Source of the DNA: a virus
Direction: 5' to 3' (one strand)
DNA length: 33,910 bases
Virus record (IMG/VR): IMGVR_UViG_3300044710_000131
Coordinates: 1 to 33,910 of that record
The translations under genes were made by a program, and so were the position numbers. This document shows, in pieces, positions 3,563-31,073 of the stretch. Below the pieces are notes generated by a model. The model was not told where the DNA came from. It made no database searches and saw nothing but the letters and a program-made list of their open reading frames with translations. The first letter of the stretch is position 1, and each line of letters begins with the position of its first letter.

Positions 3563-3629
3563 AATTACATATCGAAAAATAACAATGAAATGTTTTCTTT
3601 TTTTTAGTATGAAATATTTAAAGGGCAAA

Positions 3630-3836
3630 ATGATAACAATTGAAGAAATAAAAAGCAAACTTAATGACATTATGATTATAGAAAATAAGGAGATTAGTGA
3701 AATTTGTAGAGAATTAAATATGCACTGGAATACCCTAAATGGTTTTTTGAATAAAGGTAAAGGCGTCAGAATCGATACATTGCATAGATTATATATGTTT
3801 GTAAAGAAGAGAGACGATGAACAAAAGTCTAGCTAG
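3630..3836 (+). CDS. Small Cro/XRE-like helix-turn-helix regulator (68 aa)
   Basis: The core EISEICRELNMHWNTLNGFLNKG followed by RIDTLHRLYMFV has the helix-turn-helix plus helix pattern of XRE/Cro-type repressors, where the second helix contacts DNA. I chose the ATG at 3630 (MITIEEIK) because AAAGGG precedes it; the upstream in-frame ATGs at 3585 and 3609 lack a ribosome site. It is the first gene of the rightward operon, beside an inverted-repeat operator, the place for a Cro- or CI-like autoregulator. It is too short for a dimerisation/protease domain, so Cro-like fits better than CI-like. Confidence 0.7.
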   Translation: MITIEEIKSKLNDIMIIENKEISEICRELNMHWNTLNGFLNKGKGVRIDTLHRLYMFVKKRDDEQKSS

Positions 3837-16483: not shown

Positions 16484-16963
16484 TTAAGGCTTATTGCTAT
16501 AATTACGTACGTGAAGCGATCTCATTTCATCAAAATATTGCTTTCTAAGGCGTAAAGTTTCAGAATCTAAAGGCTGAATGCCTTGTTTACCTTTTTGCAT
16601 TCCAGTTTTTTGAAAAGTTTTACGCATTTCAATCATGATTTCACATTGGCGTTTTTTGATGATTAAATATGGTAATAATAAATAACATAATTGAGTTAAT
16701 AAATCGCCACTAACTATCCATCTATAAACATCTCTTCTTGAATTTTTAGGGGTTTGTTTAAATGTATATTTAGATTTTCTTCCGCCTATATTATTTATTA
16801 ACCAATCAATTAATTTTTCATCAGTGTTGGTTACTTCCATATTAGTTTGATAATGCAAAGAACCAGTTTTTGGATTGGAACTAAAATTTCCAATATAAAT
16901 ACTACCTTCACCATCGATAATTCCAGCTAAATAAGCTATTTGAGATATAGTATACTCTTTCAT
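16484..16963 (-). CDS. LAGLIDADG homing endonuclease (intron-encoded, antisense)
   Basis: A 159-residue protein with the motif YLAGIIDGEGSI at residues 11-22, which is the LAGLIDADG helix with its catalytic Asp/Glu region. Later blocks IGGRKSKYTFKQT, DVYRWIVSGD and IIKKRQCEIMIEM fit the single-motif family, whose members dimerise and cut intron-less alleles so that the intron is copied in. It is encoded opposite to the capsid gene, which is unusual but lets it be expressed from its own promoter (16994-17022) without disturbing splicing. AAGGAT lies before the ATG. Confidence 0.9.
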   Translation of the reverse strand: MKEYTISQIAYLAGIIDGEGSIYIGNFSSNPKTGSLHYQTNMEVTNTDEKLIDWLINNIGGRKSKYTFKQTPKNSRRDVYRWIVSGDLLTQLCYLLLPYLIIKKRQCEIMIEMRKTFQKTGMQKGKQGIQPLDSETLRLRKQYFDEMRSLHVRNYSNKP

Positions 16964-16993
16964 TTTATCCTTATATTTAAAGTGTATGTATAC

Positions 16994-17022
16994 ATTATAT
17001 CTTAGATAAAATTAAATGTACA
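16994..17022 (-). promoter_or_regulatory. Promoter of the intron endonuclease
   Basis: On the minus strand TGTACA (17022-17017), a 17-base spacer and perfect TATAAT (16999-16994), about 30 bases upstream of the ATG. It abuts the 5' edge of the intron's P7 strand. Confidence 0.5.
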
Positions 17023-17137
17023 GCGTGAGAGACTAAGTCCATGGGGATTTCATCTGAAATCAAGCGATAGTCCGAGCTTAATCGAGAGATTAAGAGGAAG
17101 GAATAACAAGACTTCCCGCCAGAAATGGTCATATAAG

Positions 17138-17805
17138 TAACAGGTATCTGTACACTCCAAAATCAAGACCCTGTTTTGAACGAATGCGCCGCTCGTCTTG
17201 GTGTGTCACTCCGTCAAACAGAAGACCAATTAACAAGAGATATGTTAGCTGGAACTGCTGGATTCATTAACTGCACAGGCGGTCCAAATGGTGACGTTCC
17301 AACAAATATTGCGCTTTCTGATGTTCAAACAGTTGTAAGAACATTATTAAATAATAATGCCTATACAATAATGGATAACATCGAAGGTGAAGATAAATTT
17401 GGTACAGCTCCAGTTCGTGATGCATATTTTGCATTATGCTCAACTCAGCTAACAGGTTCATTGGAAAACGTAACAGGATTTATTCAAAAGAATCAATATC
17501 CTGCTCCTATGAATGCTCTTAGATCTGAATGGGGCGCTATTGGAAACTTAAGATTTTTAGTTTCATCTATTGGTTCATTTAGTCCAAATGCTTCTTCTAT
17601 GGGTGCTAACGTTTACAACATTTTCTGTGTTGGAATGGAAGCCTATGCCTGTGTTGAACAAGATGGATATAGTGCAACCTTTATATATAGACCTCCAATT
17701 TATGATGGTCCATTAGCTCTCAATGCGTCTGTTGGTTATAAATTTGCGGAAGTACCTAGAATCACCAATGATCTCTGGGTTATTAACCTACGCGCAACAT
17801 TATAA
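17138..17805 (+). CDS. Major capsid protein, N4-gp56 family, exon 2
   Basis: This holds the C-terminal ~221 residues of the coat protein: LQNQDPVLNECAARLG, RQTEDQLTRDMLAGTAGFI, NCTGGPNGD, AYTIMDNI, GTAPVRDAYFAL, NQYPAPMNALRSEWG, NIFCVGMEAYACVEQDGYSA and the typical VGYKFAEVPRITNDLWVINLR end. The frame is closed by a TAA at 17134 upstream, so it cannot start as an independent gene at a good ribosome site; only TTG 17176 is available and no Shine-Dalgarno is present. It must be joined to exon 1 by splicing. It is followed immediately by AAGGAGAG and the next virion gene. Confidence 0.9.
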
Positions 17806-25836: not shown

Positions 25837-27083
25837 TGGTGCAAATAATTAATAAGCCAGGATTTGGTGAATTATTAGGAACTTCGCTTGGAAGTGGCTT
25901 GAGTAAAGGTTTAGAAACGGGACTTGGACAAGGTTTACAATTATTAGTTAATCAGAGAATGCAGGATTTAGCACAAAGAAATCTACGTCAAAGATTAACT
26001 CAGGGTCTAGAACCTTTTTATGGCGAACAGGCTGCTGCTTATGCCAATCTCCCAGAGAGTACGATAAATACCCTATTAAAAGAAAAAGTTAGAGAACCTT
26101 TATATAAATCAGAAGCAGAATTAATTAAACAATTATTTCCACAAGGACAAGTTCAAACTACTACAGAAGGTGGAGCAGTTGCTGCTCCAACAGAAGCGGG
26201 TGTTCCAGTAACTGCAGCGGAGCAAATATCACCAGCATTGGCTAGACCAGGAAAAGCTTTAGAAATTGCCAAATTTCGACAACAGGCACAGCAACATAAA
26301 GAAGCTCAAGAATTAAAAAAACAGATTCATAAAGAAAAGCAGCAATTGGCTGAAAGAAAATTGGGAACTCAAGAAAAACAAATTCAAAGAACCAATGAAG
26401 CTGAGTTAGTTAAAAATTATTTAAATCCTTTAAGAGAAAAATATGAAACATCTAAAAGAAATATAGAAGATTATAAAAATCTTATTAAAATTGCAAAAAC
26501 TCCGGGAGCTTTAAGAAATCAAACAGCTCAAACAGTTTTGCAAAGAGTTGGGCTTGGTGACCTATGGGCAAGCACTGGACAACAATTAGCTAGTACAATT
26601 ATTAATGGTTTAACTACAGGAGCTGGATCTGCTTTCAATACATCCAGATTAACCAATCTTGATGTTAATTTATATAAAAATTCATTAGCTAGATTAACTA
26701 ATACTCCAGAAGCAATAGAAGCTATTTCAAAAAATGAAATATTGGGCAATGAGGCTAATGTAGCTCAATATAAAGCCGCAGCTGAAATCCTAAAAAAGAA
26801 TCCTACTATTACTCCACTTCAATTTGAATTGGAATTTGAAGAAAAAGTTGAACCCAAATTAAAAGAATTAGCTGAGCAAACCCAAAGAAATATTGATGAT
26901 GTATTAGCAATGCAACAAGGATTAAGTGAAGAAATGGAGACATTACCATCACCTAATCAGACAAAAGGTGAAAAATTTTATGTTTCTGAATTGGGAACTC
27001 AATTAACATCAGACGGAACCAATTATTATGATTCCAATGGTAATTTATTTGATTGGCAATCTTATAATAAAGGAGCCAAATAA
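25836..27083 (+). CDS. Internal virion/ejection-like protein (415 aa)
   Basis: The N-terminus has Gly-rich repeats (LGTSLGSGLSKGLETGLGQG). It is followed by a long helical section with Lys/Glu/Gln coiled coil around residues 150-220 (QAQQHKEAQELKKQIHKEKQQLAERK). The C-terminal part is helical with a short beta end. Large helical, Gly-rich proteins in this position are ejection proteins in P22-like phages. It overlaps the next gene by one base. Function is inferred from architecture and order, not from sequence identity. Confidence 0.6.
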   Translation: MVQIINKPGFGELLGTSLGSGLSKGLETGLGQGLQLLVNQRMQDLAQRNLRQRLTQGLEPFYGEQAAAYANLPESTINTLLKEKVREPLYKSEAELIKQLFPQGQVQTTTEGGAVAAPTEAGVPVTAAEQISPALARPGKALEIAKFRQQAQQHKEAQELKKQIHKEKQQLAERKLGTQEKQIQRTNEAELVKNYLNPLREKYETSKRNIEDYKNLIKIAKTPGALRNQTAQTVLQRVGLGDLWASTGQQLASTIINGLTTGAGSAFNTSRLTNLDVNLYKNSLARLTNTPEAIEAISKNEILGNEANVAQYKAAAEILKKNPTITPLQFELEFEEKVEPKLKELAEQTQRNIDDVLAMQQGLSEEMETLPSPNQTKGEKFYVSELGTQLTSDGTNYYDSNGNLFDWQSYNKGAK

Positions 27084-28237
27084 TGCCTATAACAAGAGTT
27101 AAAGAAGCACCACAAGTTCAAGATCCCGGAACTTTAGCTAAAAGTATTGATTATTTACTGGGTGGATTAACAGTTCCATCTAATATTTATAAAAATGTAT
27201 TGGGCTATCTTGGTGAACCAAGCAATTTGGGACCAGGTTTTCAAGAATTATATCGACAAAAATCGGGTTATACTCCACAACAATTACAACCGTCTGCTTT
27301 TGGTGAAAATGTATTACAAAGATTTTTAGAATATGCCCCTATTACTGCAGCAACTGGTGGAGGTATACCTGGACTGGCTTCAACTGGTATAGGTGCTGGT
27401 TTGGCTACAGGAGGTAAAGAATTAGGATTACCTGAATGGGCTCAAACGCTATTACATTTGGGTGGTGAATTGGCATCAGGAAGAGCAATTTCAGCAATTC
27501 CAACGACTGGTAAACAGGCTGCAAGATCTTTTGGTGGATTGCCTGAATTATATAACACTGAACGTTTAGCAGCAGAAGCTGCAGCTGGCGTTAAACCAAC
27601 TGGTCCTATAAGTGATTTCTTGGCTAAACCATTTGCTAAAGCAGAAAAGCTTTATGATACGTTGCCAAAAGAATCTCAGGGAATTTTGAAAGAAGTTCAA
27701 CGTATTATGAGAAACCTAAAAGGTCATAAAGGTACAGGTAATTTTTTAGAAGCATTAAATGCAAGAAGATCCTTAGATGAGATTTCAAAAAACGCTCCTA
27801 AACAACTTTATGATGTATTGGGAGATTTTAGAAAAGAATTAAATAATTTCTTGAAATATAATAATCCAGTGAATCCTGAATTTGCAGCAAATTTAACTAG
27901 GGCAGATAAAATTAAACAATTAGAAGAACTTATTAAACCGATGAATAAAATGGTTCAAGATTGGGAAAAAGGTTTTTTCTTGGGCAAAATTGGTGGACCA
28001 TTAAGAAAAATTTTAGCAAAAGGAACCGAGTCATTATCAAGGGCTGCAATACTAATTAAAAATGATCCTGAATTGGCTTTAAAATACTTTAATAAACTGG
28101 GCAATGCCGTAATTAAAGACAATGCACCTGCAGGTGCCAATGTATTAAGTCAAATTAATAAAGCGGTCACTAAAGAAAATAATAAGCCTAAAATAACTTC
28201 AGTAAAACGCGGTAAAATTTATAGGTTGCAAACCTAA
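27083..28237 (+). CDS. Internal virion/ejection-like protein (384 aa)
   Basis: A Gly/Ala-rich hydrophobic stretch near residues 90-115 (APITAATGGGIPGLAS) could insert into a membrane. The rest is helical and basic, with VKRGKIYRL at the end. It is the third of three internal-type genes that share TAATG coupling. Its end is overlapped by about 50 bases by a minus-strand membrane gene at 28188. Confidence 0.6.
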   Translation: MPITRVKEAPQVQDPGTLAKSIDYLLGGLTVPSNIYKNVLGYLGEPSNLGPGFQELYRQKSGYTPQQLQPSAFGENVLQRFLEYAPITAATGGGIPGLASTGIGAGLATGGKELGLPEWAQTLLHLGGELASGRAISAIPTTGKQAARSFGGLPELYNTERLAAEAAAGVKPTGPISDFLAKPFAKAEKLYDTLPKESQGILKEVQRIMRNLKGHKGTGNFLEALNARRSLDEISKNAPKQLYDVLGDFRKELNNFLKYNNPVNPEFAANLTRADKIKQLEELIKPMNKMVQDWEKGFFLGKIGGPLRKILAKGTESLSRAAILIKNDPELALKYFNKLGNAVIKDNAPAGANVLSQINKAVTKENNKPKITSVKRGKIYRLQT

Positions 28238-28388
28238 AAATATCTTTTATATATTTTAATATTTCAATGATGTAAAACAACGCACTACATACTATGCCTA
28301 TTATTGTTGAAATGAGCCAAATAGTAGCTGCAAAAGAAAAAATTATAATATGTATCCAAAATATAAAATATAATAAAGCTACAATCAT
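28188..28388 (-). CDS. Multi-span hydrophobic membrane protein (66 aa)
   Basis: Two hydrophobic helices: MIVALLYFIFWIHIIIFSF and ATIWLISTIIGIVCSALFY, then a basic/aromatic tail. GAAGGT sits before the ATG. It overlaps the end of the convergent ejection-like gene by 50 bases, which is unusual but the frame is well supported by the ribosome site. It could be an exclusion or holin-like protein. It is the last gene of the leftward island. Confidence 0.5.
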   Translation of the reverse strand: MIVALLYFIFWIHIIIFSFAATIWLISTIIGIVCSALFYIIEILKYIKDIFRFATYKFYRVLLKLF

Positions 28389-28390
28389 AT

Positions 28391-28636
28391 TTAACCTTCA
28401 TGCTCCAAACAACGACAATCTGAATTATCATGACAATCAAAACAATGCTCTTCATGAAATGGTACACAAACTTCAAATTGAAGTTCTTGGCCATGTCTTA
28501 TTTCTTTTCTTATTTCATGGCAATGTTCTTCTGGACTACATGCCCCACATTTTAAACATCTAAGTTCATTTTCTCCAAAAAAATAGCCACAATCAGCACA
28601 GAAACTATTAAAATCTTTTACGTTCCATTCTTTCAT
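28391..28636 (-). CDS. Cys/His-rich zinc-binding-like protein (81 aa)
   Basis: Pairs CADC, CLKCGAC, HCFDC and CRC with several His suggest two or more zinc sites. The protein is acidic. I chose the ATG at 28636 because GAGGGTG precedes it; 28651 is also in frame. It lies directly after the third RHH gene and before the two-span membrane gene. A regulatory or scaffold role within the island is plausible; no family recognised. Confidence 0.6.
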   Translation of the reverse strand: MKEWNVKDFNSFCADCGYFFGENELRCLKCGACSPEEHCHEIRKEIRHGQELQFEVCVPFHEEHCFDCHDNSDCRCLEHEG

Positions 28637-28637
28637 A

Positions 28638-28769
28638 TCACCCTCTATCATTCTCTAGTTTATTTACAATTGCTTCTACAATATATTGTCTTGGAGTTTG
28701 GGATTTTTGTTTGCTTTTAATCCAAATCTCAGGCCAATATTCTTTAGGAACTATGCTTGTTACTATCAA
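28638..28769 (-). CDS. Putative ribbon-helix-helix protein (43 aa)
   Basis: A beta strand (IVTSIVP), a helix (KEYWPEIWIKSK), a turn with SQTPRQ, and a second helix (YIVEAIVNKLEN) make a ribbon-helix-helix pattern like Arc/CopG. The start is TTG, which lies just after GGAGGAG but with tight spacing, so the exact start is unsure. It overlaps the end of the gene at 28744. It may be an accessory repressor of the island. Confidence 0.45.
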   Translation of the reverse strand: MIVTSIVPKEYWPEIWIKSKQKSQTPRQYIVEAIVNKLENDRG

Positions 28770-28998
28770 CTCCTCCGTCAGAATCTTCTTGGTCCTTTTC
28801 ATTGTTCTCTGCTATATCCTCTAATTGTTCAAAATGGTCATAATATAAATCACAATCTAAGTCATATTCTTCTATTGGTGGTTTAACATCAATAAATCTA
28901 ATAAATACTGATTCTCCATAAGGTAAATATTCGGCTTCTGGATCGTAAGTATTATTTATCGGAAAATTCATAAGAAAAATAAGCAATAAAGCATTCAC
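28744..28998 (-). CDS. Acidic protein with hydrophobic N-terminus (84 aa)
   Basis: The start GTG overlaps the stop of the RHH gene as GTGA. A hydrophobic segment (NALLLIFLM) is followed by a very acidic domain (EEYDLDCDLYYDHFEQLEDIAENNEKD). It is probably membrane-anchored or exported. An acidic protein next to a DNA-binding RHH protein could be a DNA-mimic-type antagonist like an antirepressor, but nothing specific is recognised. Confidence 0.5.
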   Translation of the reverse strand: MNALLLIFLMNFPINNTYDPEAEYLPYGESVFIRFIDVKPPIEEYDLDCDLYYDHFEQLEDIAENNEKDQEDSDGGVDSNKHSS

Positions 28999-29144
28999 TT
29001 TTCAATGGGCTCCGTTTCTTTCATAATCAATTTAATACCTTCTAAAATTAACTTTTTTAATGTCATATTTAATTCTATAGCTTTTATTTTCATTTCCTTA
29101 TGTAATGTTTCATCAATATCAATTGATGTTCTAATATGTTTCAT
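28995..29144 (-). CDS. Ribbon-helix-helix DNA-binding protein (49 aa)
   Basis: HIRTSIDIDETLHKEMKIKA is the strand and first helix, then LNMTLKKLILEGIKLIMKE the second helix, a clear Arc/CopG-type fold. AAGGAG precedes the ATG. It is read from a consensus promoter (29165-29193). RHH dimers bind short direct or inverted repeats through the strand. It probably represses its own operon. Confidence 0.75.
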   Translation of the reverse strand: MKHIRTSIDIDETLHKEMKIKAIELNMTLKKLILEGIKLIMKETEPIEK

Positions 29145-29164
29145 ATTTGGTCTCCTTAATTAAG

Positions 29165-29193
29165 ATAATACTTACTTACTTATAATATGTCAA
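29165..29193 (-). promoter_or_regulatory. Consensus sigma70 promoter with a TAAG repeat in the spacer
   Basis: On the minus strand TTGACA (29193-29188), a 17-base spacer and TATTAT (29170-29165). The spacer includes three AAGT repeats, a natural operator for the RHH proteins encoded on both sides. P22 Arc also binds between -35 and -10. Confidence 0.65.
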
Positions 29194-29354
29194 TCTTTTT
29201 TATCTAATTGTTGTTGTAATAATAATCTCTGTTTTATTAATCTAAGTACCATTTTTGTTATGGTTATATTATAAAACTTACACAAGCACTTTAACTCTTT
29301 ATGCATATCCATAGGCATATCAACAGTTAATCTTTTTCTATGTAATCTGGGCAT
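29190..29354 (-). CDS. Ribbon-helix-helix DNA-binding protein (54 aa)
   Basis: RKRLTVDMPMDMHKELKCLC followed by NITITKMVLRLIKQRLLLQ is a textbook ribbon-helix-helix repressor of Arc/Mnt/CopG type, with the strand near the N-terminus and a Lys/Arg-rich start. AGGAG sits before the ATG. It is the first gene of the leftward island; its stop overlaps the -35 of the next promoter. It likely dimerises and represses the island and perhaps the fibre genes. Confidence 0.8.
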   Translation of the reverse strand: MPRLHRKRLTVDMPMDMHKELKCLCKFYNITITKMVLRLIKQRLLLQQQLDKKD

Positions 29355-29370
29355 TAAATCTCCTAAAAAT

Positions 29371-29382
29371 ATGTACGTACAT
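29371..29382. promoter_or_regulatory. 12-bp palindrome upstream of the RHH island
   Basis: ATGTACGTACAT is a perfect palindrome 17 bases before the first RHH start, in the 98-base gap between leftward and rightward genes. It may be an operator for the divergent pair (29354 leftward and 29453 rightward). No strong promoter was found here. Confidence 0.5.
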
Positions 29383-29452
29383 TGAAAGATTAATTTGGTT
29401 TTTATGTTAGATTCAAGCAGATAGTAAAATTTTAACTTTTAAAGGAGAAATA

Positions 29453-30343
29453 ATGAGCACAAATTTAGTGCCACAAAATATAGCCTATTCACTTAATCAG
29501 CCATTAAGTGCAATTTTTAATCCTCCATTTGTTGCTAATAGAGCACCGACTATTAATGATGCAGCTTCTATTGGTCAAATATGGGTATATCCTGCAGCAA
29601 ATGGACCATATATTCTTACCTCTATTACTGGTAATGCCCAATATAACTGGCAATTACTGGAAGCTGGTGGAGGAGCTGGTGTATTTGCTAATTTAACAGT
29701 AAATCCTGGACCAACAAATTTAACAGGTGCATTTACATTACATACAAACGGAAGTGTTGCAAATATAGGTACGGATGCTTCTAATGATACTATTAATATA
29801 GGTACTGCAGGAGCAAGAACATTAAATATTGGTAATAATAATGGTCTTACTGATTTTCAAATAATTGGTGGAGCTGCTTCCACTATTACAGTTGTAAATG
29901 ATCCGTTAACCATTGTAACTGGAACAGGAAATTTAAATATTGCTAATGATGCAACAGCTCAGAATATAAATATAGGTACAGGTTTAGGAGCAAAAATAGT
30001 AACCGTTGGAAGCGTAAGTGGCGCAAGTAGTATTGAACTAGATTCTGGAACAGGATCTGCAAGATTAGCTTCAAATGCTACAGACCATACAACATTCCTC
30101 GGCTCAACAACTGGTGTATCGGCTACTAATCTACAATCAGGAACTGGTGGAATAATAACAGCAGCTCCATTTGTAAGATTAAATGGCACAGTAAATATTT
30201 ATGTTGGCGCAGGAGTACCTGCTAATGGGCTTGCCCTAGAAACAGGTGACCTTTATATCAACTCAACTGCCGCAACCGCAGTCACTAGACTTTATATTAG
30301 TACAGGCGCAGGGGCGTGGACTAACTTTACAGCATCTGCATAG
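29453..30343 (+). CDS. Fibre-like virion protein with beta repeats (296 aa)
   Basis: After an N-terminal anchor (QNIAYSLNQPLSAIFN, then WVYPAANGPYIL), the protein repeats short beta strands such as NIGTDASNDTINIGT and NIGTG-type segments. These suggest a trimeric beta-helix shaft. The end TRLYISTGAGAWTNFTAS is a common fibre C-terminal motif. GGAGA precedes the ATG. It opens the fibre module. Confidence 0.65.
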   Translation: MSTNLVPQNIAYSLNQPLSAIFNPPFVANRAPTINDAASIGQIWVYPAANGPYILTSITGNAQYNWQLLEAGGGAGVFANLTVNPGPTNLTGAFTLHTNGSVANIGTDASNDTINIGTAGARTLNIGNNNGLTDFQIIGGAASTITVVNDPLTIVTGTGNLNIANDATAQNINIGTGLGAKIVTVGSVSGASSIELDSGTGSARLASNATDHTTFLGSTTGVSATNLQSGTGGIITAAPFVRLNGTVNIYVGAGVPANGLALETGDLYINSTAATAVTRLYISTGAGAWTNFTASA

Positions 30344-30358
30344 AAATCACCAAGATCT

Positions 30359-30364
30359 TTGACA
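30359..30364 (+). promoter_or_regulatory. -35-like TTGACA before the HNH gene
   Basis: TTGACA at 30359-30364, in the context TCTTTGACAT, recalls the element before the other homing-type gene (12318). The -10 (AACATT at 30382-30387) is poor. The promoter may be weak or controlled. Confidence 0.3.
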
Positions 30365-30387
30365 TAAAAAGTTGTCATAAAAACATT

Positions 30388-30431
30388 CTTGTTATATAGT
30401 TTGCTTAGAAATAAGTGAGCTATATAACAAG
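30388..30431 (+). promoter_or_regulatory. 12-bp inverted repeat covering the HNH ribosome site
   Basis: CTTGTTATATAG (30388-30399) pairs perfectly with CTATATAACAAG (30420-30431). The right arm overlaps the start of the AAGGA site. Folding would hide it and lower translation of the endonuclease, keeping expression low. Confidence 0.5.
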
Positions 30432-30440
30432 GAACAATTT

Positions 30441-31073
30441 ATGAAAATGATGAAACAATATGAGTTTGAATGTTTGATTTGCAAAAAAAAATGTATCAAA
30501 TATAGAACTATAAAAGTACCCATCCCAAGATTTTGTAGTACATTCTGTTACAGAAAGGCCTCACCTTCTTGGATTAATAAAACAAAATTGGTTTGGGCTG
30601 ATGCAAGTCCCGAACAAAAATTTGAACATATAAAGAAATATTATGAAAGAAATGTAATCAAACGAGGAAGCTGTTGGGATTGGAAAAGGAAATGTGAAGG
30701 TGAAAGATATCCACGTATGCATTATAGTAGATCGGAACCTAGAATTACAATACATAGAGCCTCATGGTTAATTCATAAAGGTGAAATTCCAGAGAGAATG
30801 TTTGTTTTGCATAAATGTGATAATACAAGATGTTCCAACCCAGAACATCTTTTTTTGGGAAATGCTAAAGATAATTATCAAGATGCAAAATATAAAAGAA
30901 GACATACTCATGGAATAATTAGTGGAAATGCAAAACTTGATAATAAAAAAGTTAAGAAAATTAGAGAATTATTAATTATGGGCATTAATATGAAAAAAAT
31001 AGCTGAAAAATTTAATGTTTCATATTATACAATATATAGAGTTAAACATAATAAAAGTTGGCAGAATATTTGA
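30441..31073 (+). CDS. HNH homing endonuclease with C-terminal HTH (210 aa)
   Basis: Two CxxC pairs near the N-terminus (CLICKKKC, CSTFC) suggest a zinc finger. The core CWDWKRKCEGERYPRM, HRASWLIHKGEIP, VLHKCDNTRCSNPEHL is a complete HNH nuclease motif. The C-terminal NAKLDNKKVKKIREL then MKKIAEKFNVSYYTIYRV is a helix-turn-helix shared with the 12364 protein. HNH homing genes copy themselves into phage populations. It is inserted between fibre genes, with a leader hairpin that may limit expression. Confidence 0.85.
   Translation: MKMMKQYEFECLICKKKCIKYRTIKVPIPRFCSTFCYRKASPSWINKTKLVWADASPEQKFEHIKKYYERNVIKRGSCWDWKRKCEGERYPRMHYSRSEPRITIHRASWLIHKGEIPERMFVLHKCDNTRCSNPEHLFLGNAKDNYQDAKYKRRHTHGIISGNAKLDNKKVKKIRELLIMGINMKKIAEKFNVSYYTIYRVKHNKSWQNI

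Follow-up and report, generated by a model that had tools for sequence, protein, structure and literature searches.

Between the ejection-type genes and the fibre-like gene of a podovirus lies a small group of genes that runs against the surrounding late operon, and its first gene encodes a ribbon-helix-helix (RHH) protein that recurs at the same junction in nearly all related phages. The reading favoured here, with a probability of about 0.72, is that this island is an autorepressed accessory operon or “moron,” which opposes the late operon and whose first gene encodes a dimeric RHH repressor. Its computed basis is the RHH family assignment, a place and strand conserved among relatives, and, across the lineage, a leftward promoter signal together with repeats. 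The locus was known from temperate P22-like phages, where it is explained by lysogeny; here it is near-constant in a different lineage without detected integrases. This makes an old question testable, namely whether the repressor at this junction serves accessory genes, fibre dosage, or both.

Organization of the locus

The window, meaning the whole stretch of DNA that was analysed, corresponds to a 33,910-base virus record. It encodes a P22-like portal (Pfam P22_portal, E 2.6e-71), and also an ERF recombinase, RusA and a Cro/C1-type HTH protein. According to the list of open reading frames (ORFs), six frames, all on the minus strand, form a leftward island between 28188 and 29354. On one side, in the place of the P22 ejection genes, is a late gene (27083–28237, plus strand) recognized by synteny with relatives and without a match in family searches. 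On the other is a fibre-like gene (29453–30343, plus strand), which has an N-terminal domain conserved in relatives (phmmer/HMM) and a repeat-rich body, and which matched no family and nothing in cultured phages. The labels “ejection” and “fibre” rest on position and repeat character rather than on database matches, the former on position. An HNH endonuclease gene is found directly 3′ of the fibre gene (30441–31073), and HNH-like frames also occur in the islands of loci L005 and L090.

The island begins with RHH1 (29190–29354, minus strand, ATG at 29354), a 54-residue RHH protein identified by HMM, AlphaFold and relatives, and the counterpart of the RHH protein at the same junction in those relatives. 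Only 98 nt, without any gene, separate it from the fibre gene. It is followed on the same strand by RHH2 (28995–29144, ATG at 29144), an RHH protein of 49 residues identified by HMM, whose stop codon is overlapped by the GTG start of a very acidic small protein with a hydrophobic N-terminus (28744–28998, minus strand). Then come RHH3, a divergent RHH-like protein (28638–28802, minus strand, ATG at 28802 with an alternative TTG start at 28769), a Cys-rich, zinc-ribbon-like small protein (28391–28651, minus strand), which like the acidic protein is called from its ORF, and a final frame for a membrane protein predicted from ORF and hydropathy (28188–28388, minus strand). This last frame is the least certain: it overlaps the end of the preceding plus-strand gene, and codon usage and coding score speak against it. 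Codon usage is supportive for RHH2 and the acidic protein, and neutral for RHH1, RHH3 and the Cys-rich protein. Good Shine-Dalgarno sites precede RHH1 and RHH2, that of RHH2 being AAGGAG.

Family and fold of the three small proteins

A sequence-only reading of this DNA had proposed three tiny RHH proteins in the island. All three frames are confirmed, and their family was assessed with a leave-window-out profile, built from other phages only with all window proteins excluded, and with E-values for 9,741 ORFs. RHH1 reached 49.2 bits (E 2e-13; best of 5,000 shuffles 13.9 bits), RHH2 31.9 bits (E 5e-8; best of 5,000 shuffles 16.1 bits) and RHH3 18.6 bits (E 7e-4; best of 5,000 shuffles 9.7 bits). 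RHH1 and RHH2 are clearly RHH proteins, RHH2 by sequence, while the assignment of RHH3 is weaker but significant. The Arc-like repressor family PHROG_582 was matched by RHH1 and RHH2, each at E 9e-4, and by 34 of the 38 members of the lineage set at E up to 0.05. When a profile of these 38 RHH proteins was compared with solved structures, it matched ParG (2e-5), Arc (3e-5) and ORF56 (9e-5), and more weakly the ParD and CopG structures. The Pfam Arc family PF03869 matched no window protein at E up to 1, and a single one of the 38 members at E 0.077, short of the curated cut-off.

Fold prediction of the single chains bears out RHH1 and, in part, RHH3. In the AlphaFold (AF2) model of RHH1 (pLDDT 91.8), helices 15–28 and 32–53 follow an extended N-terminus, and the top PDB matches in Foldseek are RHH proteins (MatP, CopG, AmrZ and Arc), with E-values above 0.1, which is not surprising for a protein of this length. 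The model of RHH3 (pLDDT 84) contains the two RHH-like helices, but its N-terminus is a low-confidence helix in place of the N-terminal strand, and its fold matches are weak.

Conservation at the junction

Using the adjacent tail-hub protein as query gathered more than 80 relatives. RHH1 alone, as a single-sequence query, recovered about 30 RHH frames, almost every one of them on the minus strand at this junction. The conservation count was restricted to the loci whose sequence extends 4.5 kb or more past the hub gene. In 36 of these 39, an RHH gene on the minus strand is present at the junction, in almost all cases pointing directly away from the fibre gene; RHH is missing in L002 and L089 and weak in L038. 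The P22-like position between ejection-type and fibre genes, claimed from the window, is in this way supported by a search of the relatives that had itself been proposed. The deeper relatives L109 and L110 also carry RHH. From RHH start to fibre start, the median distance over 37 pairs is 129 nt, with 34 of them within 98–155 nt and the three longest at 196, 499 and 764 nt. The lineage proteins have 47–67 residues and are diverse, 37 of them falling into 33 clusters at 60% identity, with mutual identity mostly below that value.

In the branch around L002, the leftward islands lack RHH. At the same leftward junction of L089, also without RHH, a 278-residue protein (16646–17482, minus strand) resembles SPFH/HflC-type membrane proteins by eye, and the first leftward gene of L108, in the place of RHH (17118–17324, minus strand), looks by eye like a small excisionase-type HTH. 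Only one other RHH match was present in these data, in the early region of L012 (1483–1830, plus strand; relative G005), where a longer RHH protein of 115 residues shares the locus with an ERF-like frame. Overlapping tandem RHH pairs occur in L017 (16270–16619) and L056 (8527–8834, minus strand), so RHH duplication is not unique to the window. Tandem fibre genes with a common N-terminal domain were seen in L041 (15409–17087) and L049 (16546–20233).

Promoters and candidate operators

Lineage-wide, a leftward sigma-70-like promoter of its own precedes the RHH gene, and inverted repeats lie on this promoter or beside it. Over 37 loci, the best sigma-70-like promoters upstream of RHH beat those of shuffled sequences (Fisher p 1e-7), this and the other promoter and repeat p-values being optimistic, since relatives were counted as independent despite their common ancestry. 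In 24 of the 37, the best −10 box is located 20–40 nt upstream of the RHH start. The same test gave no sigma-70 promoter signal upstream of the fibre genes (p about 1). Perfect inverted repeats with arms of at least 6 are present in the 70 nt before RHH at 20 of 37 loci, versus 6.65 ± 2.4 after shuffling (200 shuffles, maximum 14), and on the fibre side at 10 versus 5.6 expected; a paired comparison of the RHH-proximal and fibre-proximal halves of the intergenic region modestly favours the RHH side (p 0.03). At 14 loci examined, most of them partial genomes, exact copies of the chosen repeat are confined to the junction region.

A de novo motif search returned mainly −35-like words (TTGCAA/TGTCAA). 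A specificity code linking a strand residue to the site reached p 0.03 in one of two tests, uncorrected, and is not claimed. The roughly 40 diverse RHH proteins of the lineage, many with an adjacent candidate operator, offer material for studies of how RHH specificity changes.

In the window itself, the perfect 12-bp palindrome ATGTACGTACAT (29371–29382, unstranded), 17–28 nt upstream of the RHH1 start, is a candidate RHH1 operator. It is the sole exact copy in the window and, taken alone, is not significant (p 0.36). No convincing sigma-70 promoter was found upstream of RHH1 (p 0.56). Before RHH2, a sigma-70-like promoter TTGACA-17-TATTAT (29165–29193, minus strand) with 11 of 12 consensus matches is the only such 11-of-12 site on the window's minus strand; when the upstream 70 nt were shuffled 2000 times, its score was reached in 10 cases. 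Its spacer contains ACTT direct repeats at about 29170–29182, a candidate RHH2 operator. An Rfam scan of 27000–30500 gave no match.

Cargo genes behind the RHH gene

What follows the RHH gene varies from phage to phage. Across the lineage the cargo comprises acidic, Cys-rich, zinc-ribbon-like, and membrane or secreted-type proteins, the last kind in many islands. Family searches with the cargo proteins gave no useful match and no recognizable function. In a scan of the viral collection, neither the acidic protein of the window (28744–28998), which also matched no family, nor the Cys-rich protein (28391–28651) found a relative. The C-terminal HCxxCHD motif of the latter resembles one in the island of L035, the two proteins being weakly similar by BLASTP (E 0.008 for a single comparison).

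A model for the island and its alternatives

Arc, Mnt and CopG are small RHH repressors that repress their own operons. By analogy, the island would be a small inserted moron, read opposite to the late operon and separating its ejection-type genes from the fibre gene. RHH1, with RHH2 as a second unit in the window phage, most likely binds the repeats on or beside its own leftward promoter, as the sequence signals suggest, and once bound most likely represses its own operon. The protein would act as a dimer, and autorepression would go with early or low-level expression of the island. The acidic, Cys-rich and membrane genes would then be exchangeable cargo acting plausibly on the host envelope, for instance in superinfection exclusion, the process in which SieA, encoded at this site in P22, acts. 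An RHH gene with its own promoter and repeats next to a fibre gene that shows no such promoter signal fits such an autorepressed moron set against the late operon. The RHH repressor probably regulates the small accessory operon to which it belongs, and it might influence the amount of fibre as well.

Against a role confined to moron control is the fact that four phages (L043, L056, L076 and L091, or five with the weak L038) keep RHH without any cargo. Could the RHH protein then be chiefly a regulator of fibre dosage? Bound before the fibre gene, it would slow or block late RNA polymerases reading through, or leftward transcription would interfere with them, a variant compatible with autorepression. 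Besides the cargo-free phages, this somewhat unlikely alternative has in its favour the confinement of the candidate operators to the junction in the 14 loci, and the fibre gene's want of a sigma-70 signal, because of which that gene probably depends on read-through; the promoter test, however, covered the sigma-70 type, and a promoter of another type is possible. For P22, PMC2629481, citing Adams et al. (1985), states that the region is thought to affect the tailspike level via read-through of late transcription into the tailspike gene, a process in which Mnt and Arc may play a part. On the other hand, the repeats and −10 boxes lie near the RHH start and not the fibre start, three of the 39 relatives have no scoring RHH (L002 and L089, with L038 weak), and the L002 branch maintains islands without it. 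The stronger claim that the junction RHH protein is a standing fibre-dosage regulator, gating late RNA polymerase into the fibre gene, is an unlikely one; if true, the tailspike effect of the P22 ant moron would be an older, general function to which immunity was added later. Late-gene control, which the sequence-only reading had offered beside immunity, is possible on these sequence grounds, as the region lacks any further rightward gene and is the one place where the candidate operators turned up.

Secondary immunity as in P22 immI, independently evolved, had been the other proposal; taken as a function exerted in lysogens, it fares far worse. Site, RHH fold and leftward orientation are those of mnt, the orientation being a match on which the earlier reading had laid no stress. 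That the region “runs two-way” holds only insofar as the fibre gene is taken as the rightward partner, since the island genes themselves run leftward only. There are no arc- or ant-like rightward genes, and the 98 nt between RHH1 and the fibre gene leave no gene for such a role. Immunity in a lysogen is moreover unlikely because neither a tyrosine integrase (26 records) nor a serine integrase (25 records) was found, many of the records in both sets being near full length. Two scans of bacterial and archaeal genomes, with hub and portal, yielded no convincing prophage. An immI-type secondary immunity is therefore rejected as highly improbable. The portal relatives L099, L100 and L101 come from bins labelled Chlamydiia, Methanomicrobiales and Lokiarchaeota; their contigs are probably mis-binned phage contigs. 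No close cultured relative was found; the cultured podoviruses nearest by hub or portal are LUZ24 and KPP25, whose structural gene stretches, as far as viewed, contain no opposing island. The lineage is a large, uncultured and apparently non-temperate podovirus group.

Two further readings concern the island's small proteins, and both are very improbable. Several lineage members resemble antitoxin RHH profiles (ParD, HicB, CopG_antitoxin), as they would if a small neighbour were a toxin; but no toxin family appeared among the searched neighbour proteins, neighbours vary between phages and some RHH genes are solitary, so that a toxin-antitoxin module was rejected for want of a toxin partner. 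Barely more probable is a lysis cassette (holin or spanin) under RHH timing control. Small membrane proteins do occur in many islands, and no endolysin or holin was recognized among the searched window proteins, yet no lysis family was matched, cargo is missing in several relatives, and the strand is opposite to that of the late genes.

Comparison with P22-type loci

The P22 record shows, after gene 16, three leftward genes (sieA, orf59a and mnt) and then rightward arc, ant and gene 9. The likeness to immI is that the interval from the ejection genes to the spike gene holds a leftward RHH gene and, behind it, small genes along with one for a membrane protein. The lineage differs in having no rightward arc and ant and no detectable antirepressor, and the window in its tandem RHH duplication. 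The sar antisense RNA is a further feature of P22 immI. That neither type of integrase was found also sets the lineage apart from a temperate phage, while the Cro/C1-type HTH protein at 3585–3836 leaves a repressor side possible. Arc itself is alike in length (about 53 residues) and fold, with a PDB profile match (E 3e-5) and a profile comparison spanning 47 columns, but arc is on the opposite strand, and the Pfam Arc family was matched by one of 38 members (E about 0.08).

This region has been named the “ant moron,” and its variability noted (PMC2629481); in P22-like prophages sieA is located at this site (PMC10883804), and in phage L it contains just orf62 and a poorly conserved mnt homologue (PMC8022706). 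As in the P22-type ant moron, a variable gene set stands between ejection and fibre genes, and an independent leftward promoter is suggested by the lineage-wide signal, though not convincingly for RHH1 of the window. In ST64T, only mnt, pointing leftward, stands between the gene 16 homologue and the spike gene. ST64T and phage L are temperate, whereas the lineage has no detected integrase. Mnt is longer (82–83 versus 47–67 residues), its extra C-terminal part being missing here, and the similarity of the lineage proteins to Mnt, as to Arc, is at the level of the RHH superfamily, which bears on the idea of independent evolution. The arrangement is nevertheless the same: a rightward ejection gene, a leftward RHH gene alone or nearly so, and a rightward fibre or spike gene, without arc or ant, and with a gap to the spike or fibre start of 135 nt in ST64T against a lineage median of 129 nt. 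The closest known case is the P22-like ant moron, in particular the solitary leftward mnt seen in ST64T and phage L.
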